Origin: Nitrospirota bacterium
GTDB taxonomy: Bacteria; JACPQY01
Direction of reading: 5' to 3'
Length of the DNA: 64,000 nucleotides
Assembly (NCBI GenBank): GCA_016190245.1
Contig: JACPQY010000083.1
Span: forward strand, 11,899 to 75,898
This document shows positions 6,644 through 38,842 of this stretch, one piece after another; the stretch's first letter is position 1; the number at the start of each line of letters is the position of its first letter. Below the pieces are notes generated by a model. The model saw only the letters and a list, made by a program, of their open reading frames with translations. It did not search any database and was not told where the DNA came from. The position numbers and the translations under genes were made by a program.

Positions 6644-6701
6644 GGCGAACGCTCGCGATCAGCCGCCGCGATTTGCGGTCGGCTGCATCGCGTGGTTAGA
6701 T
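6644..6701 (-). other. attC recombination site, mazEF cassette
   Basis: The plus strand shows GGCGAAC (6644-6650, slightly degenerate) and GTTAGAT (6695-6701) bounding AACGCTC, TCAGCCGCC and GTCGGCTGCA arms. These are arranged as in the neighbouring attC sites, with the same TCAGC/GCTGCA inner boxes. 58 bp. The mazF stop codon (6696-6698) lies inside the R'' box. Confidence 0.8.
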
Positions 6702-7034
6702 TCCGATGATTTCATTGAGGCCCTCGACGACCTGCGCAATCTCCTCGGGCGAGGCGTGCTTGAGTCTTGCCCCGATGCGCTCGGCGGCAACCGTGCGAAT
6801 CTGGCTGATTTTGACCCACGAACGCTTCGGCAGCTTTGGCGCCTGAAGCTCTAGGGTCAGCGGAAAGCCGGCGCGCTGAGGCTGACTCGTCAACGCCACC
6901 GCGATGACGGTCCCCGAGCGCTCGTTGAACACGTCGTGGCTGAGAACCAGCACTGGGCGCAAGCCCGCCTGCTCGCGGCCGCGTACCGGGTTAAGGTCGG
7001 CCCACCGGATCTCGCCCCTCAGTATTCGGGCCAA
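6696..7034 (-). CDS. MazF/PemK-family endoribonuclease toxin (integron cassette)
   Basis: A 112-residue MazF family protein: [28 protein letters not shown], a hydrophobic [11 protein letters not shown] strand and the [13 protein letters not shown] segment. It should cleave mRNA at short sequence motifs. It overlaps the end of the upstream antitoxin gene by 16 bp. The operon fills one integron cassette between attC sites at 7315 and 6644. Confidence 0.88.
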
Positions 7035-7261
7035 GCGTCGATCTCCTGCCCCAAGCCTTCTTCAGCAAGCGCTTTCTCGAAGTTGGGATCCAGCTTTGCA
7101 CATTCGATCGCCAAACGGTCGCGCTCCATCCGCGTGAGCTTTTCGGCCACGGCCGATTGGATGGCCCGGCTACGGTTGGGATAGACCTTTTTTGCAACGA
7201 GGCCATCGACGCGCTCCAACGTTCCGCTGTCGATGGTGATGGCAACTTTGATACTGCTCAT
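7019..7261 (-). CDS. Ribbon-helix-helix antitoxin of the MazF toxin
   Basis: An 80-residue protein with an N-terminal ribbon-helix-helix ([18 protein letters not shown], then [12 protein letters not shown]). The acidic C-terminus ([19 protein letters not shown]) fits toxin neutralisation. The start ATG 7261 is preceded by TTGGAGG. A perfect palindrome at 7275-7295 lies just upstream and is the likely binding site for autorepression. Confidence 0.85.
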
Positions 7262-8554: not shown

Positions 8555-9850
8555 ATGAGAACTACACTCAAGGGTTTTGAGGTGTATCTGGCACGATCCG
8601 GCACCGCAACGGCTCATCAGCTCCCCTACTACCTCAAGTGGGTCGCAGACGGCTACACCTTCCTGGAACTGGACGAGAGCGTACCCCTCAACACCGATCA
8701 GAAACGCCGGTTCCTCTCCCACCTCGCCAAGTCTCACGAAGACTGGCAGGTGAGGCAGGCAGAAACGGCCATGCGCCACTACCAGTACTTCCTCAGCGGG
8801 CAGCAGGAGAAGACCCCGGCCGAGGCGGCGGCCTCGGACGAGTGGCAGGCCCTCGAATCGCGCATGCGTGAGGCCCTTCGGCTCCGCCACCGGTCGCTCA
8901 GCACGGAGAAGACGTACCTCATCTGGCTGCGCGGGTTCAGGTCCTTCCTGCGGACCAAGGACCCCGGGGCGGTGGACGGCAAGGATCTCCAGAACTACCT
9001 CAGCCATCTCGCCGTCGAGAGGAAGGTTTCCGCCTCTACTCAGAACCAGGCGCTGAACGCGATCGTGTTCCTGTTCCGCCATGTGCTCGACCAGAACATC
9101 GAGGGCGAACTCGACGCGGTGCGCGCCTACCCGCGCAGGCGCCTCCCCGTGGTCCTCACGCCGCGCGAATTGCACTCCCTCTTCGACCAGCTCAAGGGAT
9201 CGCACAAGCTCATGGCCAGGCTGATCTACGGCTGCGGTCTCCGAATCCAGGAGTGCCTGGATCTCAGGATAAAGGACGTTGATCTCGAACAGAACGTGGT
9301 GATCGTCCGGGCCGGGAAAGGCGACAAGGACCTGCCTGCCCGCCACAACCGGCACGGCGGGCCTGCCGAAGCGGCGCAGGCAGGCCGCCGGACCGTTCTC
9401 CCCGAGTCGCTGAAGGACGACCTGATCCGGCACATCGCCCAGGTGAGAAGCCTGTACGAAGGGGACCGGGCAAAGGAGCTAAACGGGGTCTATCTGCCCG
9501 AGGCGCTGGAACGGAAATACCCGAATGCCGGAAAGGAGTGGGCGTGGTTCTGGCTGTTCCCTTCGAGGTCTCTTGCCGTCGATCCCCGCGCGAACGTTGT
9601 GAGGCGGCATCACATCCATATCGCGGCGCTCCAGAAGGCGTTCAAGGCGGCCATCGGCAAGGCGGGCATCGCGAAGCACGCAACCGTGCACACGCTGCGG
9701 CACAGTTTCGCCACGCACCTGCTGGAAAGGGGCTATGACATCCGGACGATCCAGGAGTTGCTCGGGCATCGCAATCTCCAGACGACGATGATCTACACGC
9801 ACGTGGCGACAAAGAACATCCTCGGGGTGAAGAGCCCGCTGGATGGGTGA
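8555..9850 (+). CDS. intI: Integron integrase IntI (tyrosine recombinase)
   Basis: A 431-residue tyrosine recombinase with catalytic R230 (GCGLRIQEC), K255 (GKGDKD), H379 and R382 (HTLRHSF), H405 (LGHRN) and Y414 (IYTHV). The integron-specific insert is present at about 315-355 ([27 protein letters not shown]), which separates IntI from XerC/D. Residues 106-431 parallel IntI1 of about 337 residues. The first 95 or so residues are an extra domain resembling a second core-binding helix bundle. Residues 260-278 are an in-frame insertion encoded by a palindrome. The enzyme excises and inserts cassettes at attC and attI. It is divergent from the cassettes, the standard layout. Confidence 0.95.
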
Positions 9851-27758: not shown

Positions 27759-27900
27759 GGTGTCAGGTCTTGCATTCATTCATCGGTGAGAGCGGTAGGA
27801 TGTGCTCAGGGCGAGGCCGTCGCGTGCTTATTGTTCGACCGTGAGCCGACGGCTACGGGAGTTCGAGAAGGCGAACTGAATGAATGCAAGACCTGACACC
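27759..27900. repeat. MITE-like palindromic element with 24 bp perfect terminal inverted repeats
   Basis: A 24-base sequence starting GGTGTCAGGTCTTGCATTC at 27759-27782 is exactly inverted at 27877-27900. The 94 bp between contain a weaker internal dyad and no gene. The TGTCAGGTCTTGC end type is known from small palindromic elements mobilised in trans. It lies at the left edge of the accessory island. Confidence 0.8.
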
Positions 27901-27962
27901 AACAGCTCGCGCTTGTGGCGCCCCTCGACTTGTCCCTGTGCTCCTATCTTGAGGGGCCCTTT

Positions 27963-28091
27963 GAGATGCATGACGCGCTGATCGTGGCCACTGCCAAGAG
28001 AGTATCCTACGAAATAGGCCGCCCCGTTGCCGTGGTCACGCGCGACCGTGAGATCACAGAGTCCGGCGCGGTCGATGTCCTGTGGGCGTGA
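27963..28091 (+). pseudogene. C-terminal remnant of a PIN-domain toxin
   Basis: The frame EMHDALIVATAKRVSYEIGR, then VAVVTRDREITESGAVDVLW and a stop at 28089-28091, is the C-terminal third of a VapC-type PIN protein, including the acidic residues in HDALI and TRDREI. The N-terminal part is missing; upstream is the MITE-like element. Confidence 0.7.
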
Positions 28092-28101
28092 CTGACTCGT
28101 T

Positions 28102-28166
28102 TCGACCTCCTCGGGCGACACGAGCACGGCCGAGGGCCTGCCGTTGCGCGTGATGATCGCGCTCTG
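28102..28166 (-). pseudogene. Fragment of a Phd-type antitoxin gene
   Basis: The minus strand encodes IITRNGRPSAVLVSPEEVE, the same residues (one difference) as the intact antitoxin at 37567-37815. The DNA is about 90% identical over 59 bp. No start, no stop and no C-terminal half are present. It is a relic, and with the copy at 37673-37731 forms same-orientation repeats at both edges of the island. Confidence 0.65.
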
Positions 28167-30717: not shown

Positions 30718-30779
30718 CAAGCCGACATTCTGTATTGCAAAGATCGGAACACCGCCCTACGCTACGGCCCATAGCGAAC

Positions 30780-31751
30780 ATGCGGATGGCGAAACCTGCT
30801 CTGGAAAGATTCCTGTACATCGACCAGAAGCTGCGGTCCGGGGTGTACCCCTCCACCTCGGAACTCGGGCAGGAGCTCGGGAAATCCTACAAGACGATCC
30901 AGCGGGACATTGACTTCATGCGCGACCGGCTCTCCGCACCCATTGACTACGATGTTTCGCGCAAGGGCTGGTACTACACGGAGCGGGCCTACGCCTTCCC
31001 CTTTCCCAAGTTGACGGAATCCGATGCGAGGACGATCCAGGCCGCGGCGGCGGTCCTGGATGGGCTGGGACCGCTTCCCGGCCTCGAGGGCTTCATGCAA
31101 TTGGCCCGGGGCCTCCGGGCGGCGGCGGAAGAACCTTCATCGGCGGTCTCTGTCGGATTCGGCCCTCAGAGGATACCGGCACCACGAGTCCTTCCCATGA
31201 TCCAGAAAGCCATCGAGAGGCGGGAGACCTTACGGGTCCGGTACCGGAAGCGGCCGCAGGCGGTCCCGGAGGATAGGTTGATGGACCCCTTGCACCTTCG
31301 ATTCCAGGGAGGCGACTGGTTCCTGGCCGCAAGGGACCACCGCTCCGGTCAAGTAAGGGTCTTCGCCGTCCACCGGATGATGAGCGCCGAGACAACCGGA
31401 AATGCCTTCACCCCTGCGCCGCAGTTCTCATCGAAAACATTTTTCGGTGACGGGATCGGGATCGAACGCGGGAAGAAAGGCCACAGGGTTGTGTTGAAAC
31501 TGACGGGCTTCGCGGCCCAGATCGCCCAGGAGACCAGCTTCCATCCGAGCGAAAAGAGAACTCTGTGCAAAGACGGTTCCGTCCGGCTCGAAATGACCGT
31601 CTCCGGCCTCACCGACGTCGCCATGTGGGCGATGGCCCGTGGCCCCGAGGTGGAAGTGTTGGAACCGAAGGGCTTGAGGCAGATGGTGGCAGATGAACTG
31701 ACGAGGGCGGCGACGCTATACCGGAGGAGGTCACGTGGCACACGCAATTGA
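30780..31751 (+). CDS. WYL-domain transcriptional regulator (module copy 1)
   Basis: About 323 residues from ATG 30780 (ATG 30786 also possible); the longer ORF upstream has no family-like sequence. The N-terminal HTH reads YPSTSELGQELGKSYKTIQR, followed by DIDFMRDRL. The WYL domain is at about 140-210 (LRVRYRKR, WFLAARDHRSGQVRVFAVHR). The C-terminal WCX-like extension ends MWAMARGPEVEVLEPKGLRQ. WYL proteins are ligand-sensing regulators often found with defence genes. The last 17 bases overlap the nuclease gene. A remnant of a second WYL C-terminus lies at 34203. Confidence 0.88.
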   Translation: MRMAKPALERFLYIDQKLRSGVYPSTSELGQELGKSYKTIQRDIDFMRDRLSAPIDYDVSRKGWYYTERAYAFPFPKLTESDARTIQAAAAVLDGLGPLPGLEGFMQLARGLRAAAEEPSSAVSVGFGPQRIPAPRVLPMIQKAIERRETLRVRYRKRPQAVPEDRLMDPLHLRFQGGDWFLAARDHRSGQVRVFAVHRMMSAETTGNAFTPAPQFSSKTFFGDGIGIERGKKGHRVVLKLTGFAAQIAQETSFHPSEKRTLCKDGSVRLEMTVSGLTDVAMWAMARGPEVEVLEPKGLRQMVADELTRAATLYRRRSRGTRN

Positions 31752-32892
31752 AATTGAAATAGATCAAAAGGGAGAAGCCATATGCCAGTCTCTTCCGTAC
31801 AAGGACGAGGCGGAACTTCAGAAACTCCTGGCAGACCACCCGTCCATAATCCCGGTCGGCCAGATTTGGCGGCATTCCAGTGCGCTCTGCTTGGTCGAGA
31901 GAGAACAGGAGACCGGGGCAGGTCCTGTGGATCTAACCTTTGTTGATGAAAACGGTCGGATTCTTGTCGTCGAGTGCAAACTCGCAAGCGATGGTCGAGC
32001 TCGGAGGGAGGTTGTCGCTCAAGGGTTGGAGTATGTCGCGCACCTAGTGCGGCAGGGACCTGCAGGGATCTTGGGAAAGCAAGAAACCGCCTCTCGCGGG
32101 CAGGAGAGTCTTCTAGCCAGGTTTTGGCAGCGCGGCCTGGACACCCATCAAAAGTGGGTCGAGAGATTCGACAGCCGTGAAGCCTGGACCAGGGTTTTCA
32201 AGAAGAACATGGAGATGTACTTGCGAGACCCCGAAAAACTTGTGGATCGCCAGGGTGTAGCACTCCTGCTGGCGGCAGATTCCGTTCCGGATTCCGCTCT
32301 GGTGCTGTCCGATTTTGTAAATATCCTCTGTCGGCGTCGGAAACGTCCTCTTGTTTACTGCATGGAAGTTCGCAAGTTTCTCATTGGAGACCGACAGGTA
32401 TGCGTGGCAAACGTCCGCGCGGCGGCCCTCCTGAAGGTGGAACCCGTTGCTCAGGAACAGTTCAGTCTCGAAGACTGGCTCCTCGGCAACGTGGACGACG
32501 AAGATAGCCAGAAGTATGTTGAACTGCGGCGGAAGATCCATGAGGCCCTGGTTCAAATCGCATCCGAGAAGAGGCACTCAGTGGAAGTTGAAATGGGGAC
32601 GAAAGTTCTGATGCTGAAGTGGAGAATTGGCCCGGAAACAAAGACGCTGGCTTGCTTCGATCAGGTGGGACTCGACATGGTGCTGGCCTCCTGGTCGCAC
32701 ACGCTTGCAATACCTTCAGAAATCGAAGCGCTGCTGGCCGACCTTTCCGACAGTTGCGGCTTGAGGTTCGAGAGAGGTAAACACCGTTCGATCGCGCACT
32801 ACGAATCGTTCAGGGACCATACCAATGCCGTAGGAGCGCTGAGGGATGCGCTCGACCGCTTCATGACACGACTTGAGAACCGGCGGTCATGA
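31735..32892 (+). CDS. PD-(D/E)XK-like nuclease, first copy of the WYL module
   Basis: 385 residues from GTG 31735, with GGAGGTCAC upstream. The N-terminal 120 residues look like a restriction-type nuclease: KDEAELQKLLADHPSIIP, VDLTFVDENGRILVVECKLA (D...E-x-K) and a helix RARREVVAQGLEYVAHL. The C-terminal 260 residues are unique. It is coupled to the WYL gene by overlap. The family is inferred from the motif pattern; it resembles DUF91/NucS-like or Shedu-type domains but I cannot decide between them. Confidence 0.65.
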   Translation: MAHAIEIEIDQKGEAICQSLPYKDEAELQKLLADHPSIIPVGQIWRHSSALCLVEREQETGAGPVDLTFVDENGRILVVECKLASDGRARREVVAQGLEYVAHLVRQGPAGILGKQETASRGQESLLARFWQRGLDTHQKWVERFDSREAWTRVFKKNMEMYLRDPEKLVDRQGVALLLAADSVPDSALVLSDFVNILCRRRKRPLVYCMEVRKFLIGDRQVCVANVRAAALLKVEPVAQEQFSLEDWLLGNVDDEDSQKYVELRRKIHEALVQIASEKRHSVEVEMGTKVLMLKWRIGPETKTLACFDQVGLDMVLASWSHTLAIPSEIEALLADLSDSCGLRFERGKHRSIAHYESFRDHTNAVGALRDALDRFMTRLENRRS

Positions 32893-32920
32893 TCACGCTT
32901 ACCAAGGAGAGAGACCCTTG

Positions 32921-33124
32921 ATGAAGAACCGTGTGTCCCCTGACGACCTAGTCCGCCGCGCGACAGGCGGGAAGAGTCTGGACAAAGACCGGATGCTCCG
33001 GCCGTCCATGACCTACCATGGAATACTGGTTCCAGCCGGCCAAAGGGTAATCTGTGAAGCGAAGGAGGGACCATGGGATTCAGATTCTTTCAGAGCGTCG
33101 GTATTGGCAAGCACCTCCGGGTGA
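32921..33124 (+). pseudogene. Truncated 5' end of a TM0106-type nuclease gene
   Basis: From ATG 32921 (AAGGAGAG upstream) the first 33 residues contain DLVRRATGGKSLDKDRM and RPSMTYH. These match the intact nuclease at 35154 (DLLRRATGEKRLDRTRM, RPSMTYH). After that the similarity stops and an unrelated tail runs into the next gene. This is the leftover of the third gene of module copy 1, cut where the DUF4236 gene begins. Confidence 0.75.
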
Positions 33125-34158
33125 ACCTCGGCAAGAGTTTGCTCCCGTCTCTTACCGGGCACGCAAAAGGCATCAGTCTGAACGTAGGGAAATCGGGGTT
33201 ACGCGTCATAGGCACCATTCCGGGGATGGGTATTGGTTATTCCGTCACGACCAAAGGCCTTACTCGAACATTTAAGAAAGTAGGAAAGCAGCTCGCGCGT
33301 GACTGGGCAGATCTGGGCAAGGGAGGGGTGAGCGCCGCAAAATGGCTTGTCGAAAAAGCCGCGCAGCAGAGCCAAGTCCCGGCAGCCACGACTCTTCAGA
33401 CGCCCAAGGCAAGCGTGGTTGACCCTCAAACCTCGGTCTTCCAAACGGCGCTCGAACTGTTTTCCAAGAAAGAGTTCGGTCTTTCGTTGGGCAAGCTAAG
33501 TACGTTACAGGATCATCCCGATGCGTTGTTCTTGGCGGGACTCATTCAGTACCATTCGGGGAAGTATGACGCAGCAAAGAAGAGCCTCGACAGGGCGCTT
33601 TCGGGTGCCGACCACGGCTCGCTGTTCTCGAAGGTCGGCGCGGGAATCGCGGTTGAAATACCGCTAACCCCCGAAATCGGCGCTGAAGTCGCGCCGACGA
33701 CGGCGGGCCTGAAGCTCATGCTGGTGGAGGTACTACAGGCATCGGGCGAATTCGAAGGCGCTCTCGGTCTCCTGCGCGCCCTACAGCAAGAGCTACCCGA
33801 AAGCCCTGTCGTGAAATTGTCCCTCGCGGAACTTCTGGCCATAGGCAGTCAGCACAAGGAAGTCGTCAACGTCCTTGAAGGCGTCCAGAACAACGGCCCC
33901 GTCGAAACCGCCTGCTTGCTTTACCGGGGTCGCGCCCTGAAGGCCCTCCGCCTGAATGACGCCGCTTATCAAACCTTCGCTCCCGCCCTTTATCGGACGA
34001 AGGACAGGCCACCGAGCCTTCTGCGGGACATCCGCTACGAGAAGGCCGTCTGTGCCGAGGAGCTTGGGAAGAAGGCGGAGGCGAAGAAAGAGTTCGAGCG
34101 CATCTACGCCGAGGACCCGCGCTTCAAGGACGTGAAGGCGCGGCTGGACCTTGCATGA
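33073..34158 (+). CDS. DUF4236 domain protein with TPR-like C-terminus
   Basis: 361 residues from ATG 33073 (GAAGGAGGGACC upstream). The N-terminal 70 residues fit DUF4236 (GFRFFQSVGIGKHLRVNLGK, then GISLNVGKSGLRVIGTIPG). Residues 120-355 are helical repeats of TPR type (LFLAGLIQYHSGKYDAAKKS, EFEGALGLLRALQQELPES, KKAEAKKEFERIYAEDP). The function of DUF4236 is unknown to me. The gene is inserted between the two halves of the duplicated nuclease module. Confidence 0.75.
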   Translation: MGFRFFQSVGIGKHLRVNLGKSLLPSLTGHAKGISLNVGKSGLRVIGTIPGMGIGYSVTTKGLTRTFKKVGKQLARDWADLGKGGVSAAKWLVEKAAQQSQVPAATTLQTPKASVVDPQTSVFQTALELFSKKEFGLSLGKLSTLQDHPDALFLAGLIQYHSGKYDAAKKSLDRALSGADHGSLFSKVGAGIAVEIPLTPEIGAEVAPTTAGLKLMLVEVLQASGEFEGALGLLRALQQELPESPVVKLSLAELLAIGSQHKEVVNVLEGVQNNGPVETACLLYRGRALKALRLNDAAYQTFAPALYRTKDRPPSLLRDIRYEKAVCAEELGKKAEAKKEFERIYAEDPRFKDVKARLDLA

Positions 34159-34202
34159 GGCTGCGAAGAGGGTGTCCCAATCCATGCGTGGTGACAACGC
34201 CG

Positions 34203-34336
34203 GATGACGGCACGATGTGGGCGATGGCGCGGGGGCGGAGGTCGAAGTGCTCGCACCGTCGGCGTTGCGGGAAATGGTGCCTCGAGAACTGGGTCAAGCG
34301 GTGAAGCTCTACCGAAAAGGAGGCAAGAGGAAATGA
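34203..34336 (+). pseudogene. C-terminal remnant of a second WYL regulator
   Basis: DNA here encodes MWAMARG, then after a one-base shift in a G run AEVEVLAPSALREMV and ELGQAVKLYRKGGKRK. It parallels the end of the intact WYL protein at 31751 (MWAMARGPEVEVLEPKGLRQM, TRAATLYRRRS). The stop overlaps the next start as ATGA, so the original operon coupling is preserved although the regulator is gone. Confidence 0.75.
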
Positions 34337-35157
34337 AACAGGATTCTGACAGTGGACTTGCGCATGTGGTCAATCCTCGGATCGAGGTCTCTTGGTTCGA
34401 GGTTGGCGCGAAAGACGTAATGAGTAGGGTTGAGCCGCCCACCGCGGTCAAGCCCGACGAAATCGTGAAGTTCACATCATCGGAGGGCGAACTCACGGAG
34501 GTCATCGCGAAGAACGGCAAGGCCTTGTTCAACATTGATCTCAAGCTGAGAAGCGCGGATCCGAAGGGAAGCGGAGGTGCCGACATCGTTTGGATCGGCC
34601 CTGACCATCGCAAGTGGCTTTGCGAGTTGAAGGCGGGATGGGTCACTGCGCCGGTTGTGGGGCAGGCCGTGGGCTACCTCTTCGAACACATGCCAAGGGA
34701 CGGCAAGAAGCCGAGTCACTATCAGATCCTAGCCGGAGGATTCCGTGTGAATCACCAGGCGTGCGGGCTTGCGGATCTTCTCACCTCGTCGGGTCTCTCG
34801 ATCGTGATATTCGAGCTGGCTGAGAGAAAAAGGGAAAAAGACGGTGAGAGATTGCTCAGACTACGAGTGTTCCGTTTCGATGGGAAGGGAATAAGAGCGA
34901 ACTTCAAGCCGGGCATGGTCTTGTATGACGCCATCAATGTGAACTGGGCGGGTCACACAGGATACCTCGAGATCCAGAACATTGGCCCGAGGGGAGAGTG
35001 CGGCGTGCAGATGGTGAAGGAGGAGAAGGGGAGCGAGGGGAGCCCCGGCGCCTTCAAGCCTGCACATGAGATCAAGATGGCGTCGACACTCGTGCACCTG
35101 GAGGTTGTTCCCCGGTCCAGCAAGACCGGAGGCAACGAACCGAAAGAGGGAGGGTGA
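34333..35157 (+). CDS. Putative PD-(D/E)XK nuclease, second copy of the WYL module
   Basis: 274 residues from ATG 34333 (AAAAGGAGGCAAGAGG upstream). Core motif GGADIVWIGPDHRKWLCELK (D, then E-x-K) followed by a helix VGQAVGYLFEHM, which suggests a restriction-like nuclease. A beta-rich second half (LLRLRVFRFDGKGIRANFKP) follows. Outside this core it shows no clear similarity to the first-copy protein, so the middle position of the module varies. Overlaps both neighbours. Confidence 0.6.
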   Translation: MKQDSDSGLAHVVNPRIEVSWFEVGAKDVMSRVEPPTAVKPDEIVKFTSSEGELTEVIAKNGKALFNIDLKLRSADPKGSGGADIVWIGPDHRKWLCELKAGWVTAPVVGQAVGYLFEHMPRDGKKPSHYQILAGGFRVNHQACGLADLLTSSGLSIVIFELAERKREKDGERLLRLRVFRFDGKGIRANFKPGMVLYDAINVNWAGHTGYLEIQNIGPRGECGVQMVKEEKGSEGSPGAFKPAHEIKMASTLVHLEVVPRSSKTGGNEPKEGG

Positions 35158-36653
35158 GGACTCCGTTGCTGAAACCCGATGCAGGCGACCTGCTACGCCG
35201 GGCGACTGGCGAGAAACGTCTCGATCGGACACGGATGTTCAGGCCGTCCATGACCTATCATCTCCTGAAGGACCCTTTCTGGATCTGGTGCGGGTACCAT
35301 GCGCCGAGGGAGGAGGCCGTGGAGGAGGAGTCCCGCTACGACGAGATGAAGATGCAGCGCGGCTCGGAATATGAGGAGGCCTGGGTCAAGGAGCACTACC
35401 CCAACGCCGTCAAGGTGCAGCCCGAGTTCGGACTCGCCGCACTTCAAGATACGATCCGTCTCATGCTCGAAGGCACACCTGCCATCTACCAGCCACAGCT
35501 ATGGCACCTTCGCGGCGAAATGTATGGGAAGGGCGACCTTCTCGTTCGCGACGATTCGCGCCCCTCAGACCTGGGCGACTTCCACTATCGAGTGAAGGAA
35601 ATCAAGCATTCGAAGAAACTTCAGCCGTACCACACGCTTCAGGGGGCCTGCTACAACTGGATGCTGGGAGTCATCCAGGGGTACAAGCCCGAGACTGTGA
35701 CCGTGGTCCTCAAGGAGACTGAAGAGGCGGTGTCCTATGAGCGCGCGCGTGAGGATCTCGAAAGCCACCTTTCGACGTGGTCCGATCTGCGTGACGGCAA
35801 GCTGCGCCCGGGCCCCACAGCGATGGACTGCACGGACTCGCCCTGGCGCGTGTACGCAAACAAGCTCCTGCTTGAGAAGCTTGACCTTACGCTTCTTCCC
35901 GGTGTGGGCCCGGCCGGTCGCGAGCACCTCCGGGCGGCTCTCGGCGTGACCGGCATCCGCGAGCTCTACGAGTTCTCGCTCGACCACCTGCGCCGCGCGC
36001 TCGGGGAGAAATCGGGGACCGACATCTACCGACACGCCCAATCCTACAAACTCGGCCGTCCCATCCCGAGGAACAACTACCCGTTTCACGTCCCGCGTGC
36101 CAAACGCAACATTCACTTCGATTTCGAGACGTCGGACGAGGTCCATCCCTCGGAGCCGCCGCATATCTACCTCATCGGCGCGTTCGACGAGGAACGCGAA
36201 CGCTTCGCGTACTTCCTGGGCAAGGGGGCGGCGGAAGAGGAGAAGATCTTCCACGACTTCCTCGAATACGCGGGCGACCCCCGCGACGTCTGCCTCTATC
36301 ACTGGACCGACTTCGAGATCGGTGAGATCAAGGGCGTGGAGAGGCGCTATCCCCTTCTTGCAGGCCGGCTCGAGGCCCTCCGTGGATCCTGCGTGGACCT
36401 CAAGGAGGCCGTGCGGCAGCAGTTCTACCTAGCCGTGCCGACCTACTCCATCAAGTCCGTCGCGCCCTTTCTCGGATTCAACTGGCGGCAGAAGGACGTC
36501 GGTGCATTCGAGTCCATGGTCCTCTACTGGGACTACCTGGAGGGCGACAACGAGGGCATCAAGAAAGCCATCATGTACAACGAGGACGACGTGCTGGCCA
36601 TGGTCCACATCCTGCGAGTGCTCTCAGGACTTCGCCCCGGCGCGCTGCGATGA
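35154..36653 (+). CDS. TM0106-family RecB-like nuclease with RNase H-like domain
   Basis: 499 residues from GTG 35154 (GTGA overlap). The N-terminal half has RecB/Cas4-like features: RPSMTYHLLKDPFWIWCGYH, GKGDLLVR, DFHYRVKEIKHSKKLQPYH (E-x-K) and LQGACYNWMLGV. A helix-hairpin-helix-like LLPGVGPAGREHLRAA is in the middle. The C-terminal half is a YprB-type RNase H fold exonuclease: NIHFDFETSDE, LYHWTDFEIGEIK and AIMYNEDDVLAM with the acidic residues. Domain pairing is that of TM0106 proteins. Probable role: DNA or RNA degradation. I see no four-cysteine iron-sulfur motif. Confidence 0.82.
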   Translation: MRTPLLKPDAGDLLRRATGEKRLDRTRMFRPSMTYHLLKDPFWIWCGYHAPREEAVEEESRYDEMKMQRGSEYEEAWVKEHYPNAVKVQPEFGLAALQDTIRLMLEGTPAIYQPQLWHLRGEMYGKGDLLVRDDSRPSDLGDFHYRVKEIKHSKKLQPYHTLQGACYNWMLGVIQGYKPETVTVVLKETEEAVSYERAREDLESHLSTWSDLRDGKLRPGPTAMDCTDSPWRVYANKLLLEKLDLTLLPGVGPAGREHLRAALGVTGIRELYEFSLDHLRRALGEKSGTDIYRHAQSYKLGRPIPRNNYPFHVPRAKRNIHFDFETSDEVHPSEPPHIYLIGAFDEERERFAYFLGKGAAEEEKIFHDFLEYAGDPRDVCLYHWTDFEIGEIKGVERRYPLLAGRLEALRGSCVDLKEAVRQQFYLAVPTYSIKSVAPFLGFNWRQKDVGAFESMVLYWDYLEGDNEGIKKAIMYNEDDVLAMVHILRVLSGLRPGALR

Positions 36654-37447: not shown

Positions 37448-37570
37448 TCAGGACGCGGGCATAAAGCCCGCGACTACAGCCTGTGTCTTCCGGACGCGCT
37501 CCTTGACCGGTCCATCGAGCCTGCGGATCCGCCGTGCCGCCTCCTCCGCGTACAGAACGCGGTAGGTCAC
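37448..37570 (-). pseudogene. N-terminal remnant of a RelE-type toxin
   Basis: Starting at GTG 37570, overlapping the antitoxin stop as GTGA, the frame reads VTYRVLYAEEAARRIRRLDG, then PVKERVRKTQ. This is a RelE start. It then runs into GTCGCGGGCTTTATGCCCGC, a common palindromic repeat, and stops after 40 codons. The repeat insertion appears to have broken the toxin. Confidence 0.65.
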
Positions 37571-37815
37571 CTGAAAACGGCTTCGTGCTCCACCAAACGC
37601 CCCGCACGCTCCTCCTCCTCGGCCCTCAGAAGGGAAAGCATCAGTCTCTTGTCGGCGAGGATCTCGAGAGTTTCGATCTCCTCGGGGGACACGAGCACGG
37701 CGGACGGCCTGCCGTTGCGCGTAATGATCACCCGCCCTCGTTTCTTTCTGCCGAGATCGGCCACCAAGGAGGGAAGGTGCGCGCGCACGTACGATACCGG
37801 AAGGATTCTATCCAT
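37567..37815 (-). CDS. Phd/YefM-type antitoxin (orphaned)
   Basis: About 82 residues from ATG 37815, which has GGAGG nine bases upstream (ATG 37821 has too short a spacing). It reads MDRILPVSYVRAHLPSLVAD, GRVIITRNGRPSAVLVSPEE and an acidic C-terminus LRAEEEERAGRLVEHEAVF. It should repress its own operon. The partner RelE is disrupted, so this antitoxin survives alone. Confidence 0.8.
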   Translation of the reverse strand: MDRILPVSYVRAHLPSLVADLGRKKRGRVIITRNGRPSAVLVSPEEIETLEILADKRLMLSLLRAEEEERAGRLVEHEAVFR

Positions 37816-37915
37816 TCGCATGAACCTCCGACAACATGGTACGGAACTATGTACATGTGTGCCAACCCGTTTCGTCCTTGAAAAAATGCCCGACCTGGCC
37901 CACCATCTTCCCCTG

Positions 37916-38842
37916 ATGAACGAACGCAAAGTGGTCATCATCGGATCTGGCTGCGCCGGCCTCTCCGCGGCCATCTACTCCGCGAGGGCCAACCTGAGCC
38001 CGCTCGTGATCGAAGGCATCCAACCGGGCGGCCAACTCGGGACGACCACCACCGTCGAGAACTACCCCGGCTACGAGCACGGCGTCCAAGGGCCGGACCT
38101 CATGGCCATCATGAAGGCGCAGGCGGCACGGTTCGGCACGGAGTTCCTCATGGACGAGGTGACCGCCGTCCGGCTCGACCGCCGCCCCTTCGAGATCGAG
38201 GTCGGCGGTCAGACCCTTCGCACCGCGAGCCTCATCATCGCCACCGGTGCCTCCGCACGCATGCTCGGCCTGCCCAACGAAGCCAAGCTGATCGGCCGAG
38301 GCGTCTCCACGTGTGCCACGTGCGACGGCGCCTTCTTCAAGGGGCGCCGGATCGTCCTCGTCGGGGGGGGGGACTCGGCCATGGAGGAAGCCCTCTTCCT
38401 GACCCGCTTCGGGGAATCGGTGAGTGTCGTTCACCGCAGGGACAAACTCCGGGCCTCCCGCATCATGCAGGATCGCGCGCTGAAAAACCCCAAGATCAGG
38501 TTCGCGTGGTACAGCGTGATCGAGGAGATTCTCGAGAAGGACGGGAAGGTCGGCGGGGTCGTGCTCCGCAACGTGCAGACGGGCGAGAAGACCGAGTTGC
38601 CCTGCGAGGGCCTTTTTGTCGCCATCGGCCACGAGCCCAACACCAAGCTCTTCCGAGGCGCCCTCGACACGGACGAGGTGGGTTATCTCAAGACGGTCAA
38701 TGGGACCACGGCGACGAAAATCCAGGGCGTTTTCGCCTGCGGGGACGCGGTGGATCACCGCTACCGCCAGGCGGTGACCGCGGCAGGCAGCGGCTGCATG
38801 GCCGCGATCGACGCCATCCGCTACCTGGAAAGCCTGGAGTAA
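37916..38842 (+). CDS. trxB: Thioredoxin-disulfide reductase
   Basis: 308 residues from ATG 37916 (ATG 37886 is an alternative that adds ten unrelated residues). FAD site VVIIGSGCAGLSAAIYSARA, redox active CATCDGAFF, NADPH site IVLVGGGDSAMEEALFL and the C-terminal FAD motif GVFACGDAVDHRYRQAVTAAG. It transfers electrons from NADPH to thioredoxin. It stands next to pheA in the same direction, 27 bp apart. Confidence 0.95.
   Translation: MNERKVVIIGSGCAGLSAAIYSARANLSPLVIEGIQPGGQLGTTTTVENYPGYEHGVQGPDLMAIMKAQAARFGTEFLMDEVTAVRLDRRPFEIEVGGQTLRTASLIIATGASARMLGLPNEAKLIGRGVSTCATCDGAFFKGRRIVLVGGGDSAMEEALFLTRFGESVSVVHRRDKLRASRIMQDRALKNPKIRFAWYSVIEEILEKDGKVGGVVLRNVQTGEKTELPCEGLFVAIGHEPNTKLFRGALDTDEVGYLKTVNGTTATKIQGVFACGDAVDHRYRQAVTAAGSGCMAAIDAIRYLESLE

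Follow-up and report, generated by a model that had tools for sequence, protein, structure and literature searches.

Regulators of the WYL type are established in the control of defence, as with BrxR and CapW, and of the response to DNA damage, as with PafBC (PMC9122601, PMC9122588, PMC11804915), and PafBC is activated by single-stranded DNA (ssDNA) (PMC11804915). NucS/EndoMS is a mismatch-repair nuclease (PMC5290159). For nucleases of the TM0106 family (COG2251, TIGR03491) the literature searched gave no functional study, nor one of WYL together with DUF3883; one classification paper predicts 3'-5' exonuclease activity. Here we describe a locus with relatives of all three, found in a 64,000-nucleotide (nt) stretch of a Nitrospirota bacterium (assembly GCA_016190245.1, contig JACPQY010000083.1, positions 11,899 to 75,898; hereafter the window, by whose numbering positions are given). 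Genes for a WYL regulator, a nuclease and a TM0106 nuclease follow each other in this order twice, in tandem and all on the + strand, each copy being partly broken, and the 3.3-Mb assembly has a single such locus. Probably it is a module for DNA defence or for dealing with DNA damage, in a new arrangement. Its genes are:

30780-31751, + strand: WYL1, an intact helix-turn-helix (HTH)-WYL-WCX transcription regulator of 323 residues (Pfam WYL 5.7e-17, WCX 9e-15; PDB matches)
31735-32892, + strand: NucA, 385 residues, with a NucS-type PD-(D/E)XK core (NCBIfam NucS 1.8e-6; PADLOC PDC-S11 1e-7; profile against 2vld 1e-4)
32921-33019, + strand: TM0106 remnant of copy 1, the 33 N-terminal codons (DNA match to the intact TM0106 gene)
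33073-34158, + strand: complete DUF4236-TPR gene between the two truncations (Pfam TPR_19 1e-9, DUF4236 9e-6)
about 34206-34336, + strand: WYL remnant of copy 2, the C-terminal ~38 codons with one frameshift (blastn and blastx against WYL1)
34333-35157, + strand: NucB, 274 residues, with a NucS-type PD-(D/E)XK core (profile search with two relatives)
35154-36653, + strand: intact TM0106-family nuclease of copy 2, 499 residues (TIGR03491 3.5e-53; RNase_H_2 7.7e-26; IMS_HHH_1 1e-6)

The coordinates and gene content of the two copies had been proposed in a sequence-only reading and proved correct, as did its claim that the module is present twice with the middle gene changed and the neighbours still recognisable. 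The TM0106 fragment of copy 1 matched the N-terminus of the intact gene at 60/77 nt (E value 2e-10), with 19 of 25 residues identical, and the WYL remnant of copy 2 corresponded to residues 279-316 of WYL1 (blastn 56/75 nt, E 2e-9; blastx E 2e-8). The latter match was split over two frames (17/29 and 8/10 residues), which places the frameshift near WYL1 residue 288. Both matches were collinear with the full genes and far beyond chance. The same reading had described the junction overlaps as conserved; this held for the WYL/nuclease junction, which overlaps by 17 nt between WYL1 and NucA and by 4 nt (ATGA) between the WYL remnant and NucB, and failed for the nuclease/TM0106 junction: copy 2 has an overlap there (4 nt, GTGA), whereas the TM0106 fragment of copy 1 begins with an ATG at 32921, 28 nt past the NucA stop. 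The NucA start is a GTG preceded by an AGGAGG site. Four genes, WYL1, NucA, NucB and one TM0106, remain as full open frames, with the catalytic residues intact in the nucleases.

The two copies diverged unevenly. At this one locus the flanking-gene remnants, which provide 25 and ~39 aligned residues, were 59-80% identical between copies, and plain duplication followed by drift would be expected to leave the middle genes about as similar. NucA and NucB were instead unequal in length (385 and 274 residues) and related at the edge of detection: they shared only a ~74-residue core at 19% identity, with a BLASTP E value of 0.09 and a profile-profile probability of 94.5%. Since the flanks are this similar and the middle genes have only the core in common, it appears that the middle gene was exchanged, or else that two modules of the same kind came in separately.

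As had been proposed, the middle genes were PD-(D/E)XK-like and not members of unrelated non-nuclease families. Both carry the catalytic core of NucS/EndoMS with its D, E-x-K, Q motif, made up in NucA of E25, D66, E80-x-K82, Q96 and Y100 (by alignment) and in NucB of E51, D84, E98-x-K100, Q111 and Y115. The NucA profile that matched NucS (2vld) had seven members. NucB alone gave no match in Pfam or to the NucS family model, and a profile built with its two relatives matched NucS (2vld, E 4e-6) and EndoMS (5gke, E 6e-6). The likeness was limited to the catalytic core: NucA scored 27 bits against the full NucS model (cut-off 216) and aligned only at model positions 129-201, the N-terminal DNA-binding domain of NucS was undetected in NucA and NucB, and the regions outside the core differed from those of NucS. 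Predicted structures of NucA and NucB were of very low confidence (mean pLDDT, the predicted local distance difference test score, 35 and 32). NucA itself and relatives of both proteins matched the PADLOC candidates PDC-S11/S18. Of 386 genomes, 34 had NucA-type genes, some of them more than one; NucB-type genes occurred in 3 of 241, and a search of plasmids with NucB gave no match. In one genome (G030, locus L144) a NucA relative was seemingly interrupted by a transposase gene.

WYL1 has the HTH-WYL-WCX architecture of BrxR-, CapW- and PafBC-type regulators and, as with them, its gene comes first in a nuclease operon. Its WYL and WCX domains scored 62 and 55 bits in Pfam, both above the cut-off, and the HTH match was weak (HTH_11, 16 bits; cut-off 25). 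Its top matches in the PDB were PafBC (6sj9, 1e-13) and further WYL regulators, with CapW lower (7tb6, 2e-4), so that WYL1 is by score closest to PafBC. The role of sensor that the sequence-only reading gave to this protein was not supported here, and WYL1 is best described as the putative regulator of the operon.

The intact TM0106 protein scored 181 bits against TIGR03491 (cut-off 97), with residues 77-486 aligned. By motif it has the Cas4/RecB-like PD-(D/E)XK site of the family (D128, E149-x-K151, Q163) and the site of the RNase_H_2 (DEDD-type) exonuclease domain (D323/E325, D386, D478), together with a helix-hairpin-helix (HhH). It differs from other TM0106/COG2251 proteins in lacking a fused helicase, in the loss of most of the CPW-region cysteines kept in other members (iron-sulfur), in its own clade and in the co-directional NucS-core partner upstream. 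In the tree it grouped with proteins of three genomes (G384, G387 and G184; support 100/96), with those of Elusimicrobiota as the sister group (100/100). Outside Elusimicrobiota this clade was seen only in these three genomes and that of the window (G000), and the closest relatives, in G384 and G387, were 53% identical. The gene in G184 is split over two contigs and stands behind a non-defence gene. No TM0106 relatives were found in viral contigs, and none of the G384 protein in phage records. About 60 Elusimicrobiota species (L036-L095, L097) carry a TM0106 relative in which the exonuclease motifs are kept.

The recurrence of the gene order was assessed at the best 80 TM0106 loci from ~85,000 species genomes, with flanks read up to 7 kb. 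The idea that the window operon is common was rejected, as the loci nearest to the window TM0106 have no WYL gene. A locus with WYL and TM0106 genes in G084 (L018) was likewise set aside, its TM0106 being of the helicase type at a contig end, with no NucS-core gene between. G384 and G387 (L184, L195), from a small phylum, have a conserved row of a SWIM-domain gene, a TmtA-like GHKL-NOV_C gene and the TM0106 nuclease. Here TM0106 starts ~20 nt behind a gene of ~1,900 amino acids that matches TmtA (E 3e-65) and NOV_C; nearby, one of the two genomes has a type I HsdM-like gene (by eye) and the other a gene for an Mrr endonuclease. It is possible that this row is a Tiamat variant with its own nuclease. 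The loci of the nearest TM0106 relatives resemble Tiamat in the TmtA-like GHKL gene directly upstream, whereas the window has no TmtA-like gene and its TM0106 partner is a NucS-core nuclease.

WYL genes were found beside TM0106 genes on plasmids, all from Alphaproteobacteria, where a WYL gene adjoins a helicase-fused TM0106 gene at 8 of 23 distinct loci read (a count that includes a Shinella locus called by hidden Markov model because it was unannotated). In the reverse search with WYL1, six WYL genes lay within ~0.5 kb of a helicase-type TM0106 gene among the 25 plasmid matches listed. These pairs (L200, L202, L204-L208, L214) came from Roseovarius, Shinella, Rhizobium, Rhodobacter, Paracoccus and Novosphingobium, and their companion genes vary. 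Some stand in islands with TIR, ThiF, restriction or CBASS-like genes, and against PADLOC-DB they matched only through the helicase part (MkoA-like) and generic WYL models. The expectation that WYL genes would be found near TM0106 elsewhere held for this other TM0106 clade, with no NucS-core gene in between.

We tentatively read the locus as a WYL-controlled foreign-DNA nuclease module, and give this reading close to an even chance. Two related WYL-regulated two-nuclease operons would once have stood in tandem, and a deletion or insertion that left the DUF4236-TPR gene would have removed most of the copy 1 TM0106 gene and the copy 2 WYL gene. The surviving WYL1, NucA, NucB and one TM0106 could still act as one set. 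The HTH-WYL-WCX protein would either repress the operon and release it or switch it on, and the trigger might be a nucleic acid that signals phage infection or DNA damage and is bound by its WYL/WCX part. The NucS-core protein would cut foreign or damaged DNA first, and TM0106, as a Cas4/RecB-like nuclease and DEDD-type 3'-5' exonuclease, would then degrade the DNA ends. If the NucS-core protein sets the cutting target, this would explain why the middle part was swapped, and an exchangeable middle nuclease is a reasonable reading of the locus. In favour of a foreign-DNA module are the domains and catalytic residues, the co-directional, overlapping or tightly spaced genes, the diverged middle genes, and the patchy distribution of the TM0106 clade and of NucA- and NucB-type genes. 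The PADLOC candidate matches, the TmtA-like, HsdM and Mrr neighbours of the closest TM0106 relatives, the recurrence of WYL/TM0106 pairs on plasmids and the known roles of WYL regulators point in the same direction.

Several observations weigh against it. The three-gene order, which the sequence-only reading took for a real recurring module, was present at 0 of the best 80 TM0106 loci, whose flanks held no relative of WYL, NucA or NucB, and at 29 other NucA-type loci read there was no WYL or TM0106 gene within 1.5 kb. In the sister genus TM0106, NucA and the exact module were not found, and downstream of a WYL1 relative there (L148, E 2e-44) come transposase-like genes and no nucleases. These results do not bear out an established recurrent module: the arrangement is known from a single locus of one assembly, and what was found elsewhere is related to it but different. 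On the plasmids the WYL gene is divergent, and the helicase-fused TM0106 belongs to a clade separate from that of the window, so that the WYL/TM0106 pairing is either old and since broken up, or convergent; the plasmid pairing in particular may be convergent. The Elusimicrobiota TM0106 is conserved and WYL-free, its PD-(D/E)XK acids are replaced, mostly by N and Q, and it lies in conserved housekeeping synteny beside phosphatase-like and ACT-domain-like genes (by eye). Upstream of WYL1 there is no clear operator-like inverted repeat, the best being one of 8 bp with one mismatch at 30760-30776. Both copies are damaged. Finally, housekeeping genes make up most of the window (tRNA-Val, secG, gph, trxB, pheA and others), and no other defence gene was detected in it, the nine other window proteins tested against PADLOC having given no match. 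Against PADLOC-DB 2.0.0 no component set of a named system was matched; there were only generic WYL, weak Cas4 and the single-gene PDC-S11/S18 matches.

A DNA-damage repair operon, in which a PafBC-like WYL protein activated by ssDNA would induce an endonuclease of the NucS type along with an exonuclease to clear damaged or mismatched DNA, fits almost as many facts, given the response of PafBC to ssDNA (PMC11804915) and the action of NucS as an endonuclease on mismatches (PMC5290159). The best solved match of WYL1, the catalytic core shared with NucS/EndoMS, the HhH and exonuclease domains of TM0106 and the stable, housekeeping-like Elusimicrobiota clade all agree with it. We nevertheless consider it unlikely, if worth serious attention: NucA and NucB match the catalytic core of NucS and not its DNA-binding part, a patchy distribution and a swapped middle gene are unusual among repair genes, and the nearest TM0106 relatives outside Elusimicrobiota adjoin a Tiamat-like gene.

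As both copies are broken, the locus could also be a non-working residue, at a variable site, of one or two modules acquired horizontally. One TM0106 gene is truncated, one WYL gene is truncated and frameshifted, and a TPR gene stands between them. The GC content (0.55-0.62 across the locus against ~0.63-0.69 in the flanks) and two Phd/YefM antitoxin copies bordering a 9.6-kb stretch, 92% identical over 60 nt, one full (37570-37974) and the left one a fragment (27828-28158), are in line with such an origin and suggest an accessory site rather than a proven island, and the sister genus has neither TM0106 nor NucA. The complete WYL gene, both middle genes and one TM0106 gene are, however, full frames with intact nuclease residues, and we regard a dead remnant as improbable. 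That unrelated nuclease and regulator genes were merely brought together and then duplicated once is very hard to credit, for although the exact order was not seen again and the other NucA-type loci read lack close WYL and TM0106 genes, both diverged copies keep their order and tight or overlapping junctions, and TM0106 genes are paired elsewhere, if in other forms, with WYL or partner genes.

A broader form of the foreign-DNA nuclease reading, which we put forward as doubtful, is that TM0106 would be the constant end-degrader of a defence system under WYL control, with a partner encoded upstream that can be exchanged: a NucS-core endonuclease (A or B) or a Tiamat-like GHKL-NOV_C protein. Swapping the partner would change the DNA attacked, and the WYL/TM0106 pairing would have arisen at least twice.

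Elsewhere in the window, a tyrosine recombinase gene with Phage_int_SAM_4 and Phage_integrase domains, possibly integron-integrase-like, lies at 8555-9847, a PemK/MazF-like toxin gene at 6699-7061 (- strand) and a PIN-toxin-like C-terminal fragment (by eye) at 27915-28091. An Rfam search of the window returned one tRNA only.

TM0106 nucleases are widespread and uncharacterised. The window locus, the Tiamat-like pairing and the plasmid WYL pairing provide gene sets for asking whether TM0106 is a nuclease part common to several defence systems, and the swapped middle gene offers a natural experiment on which component gives specificity.

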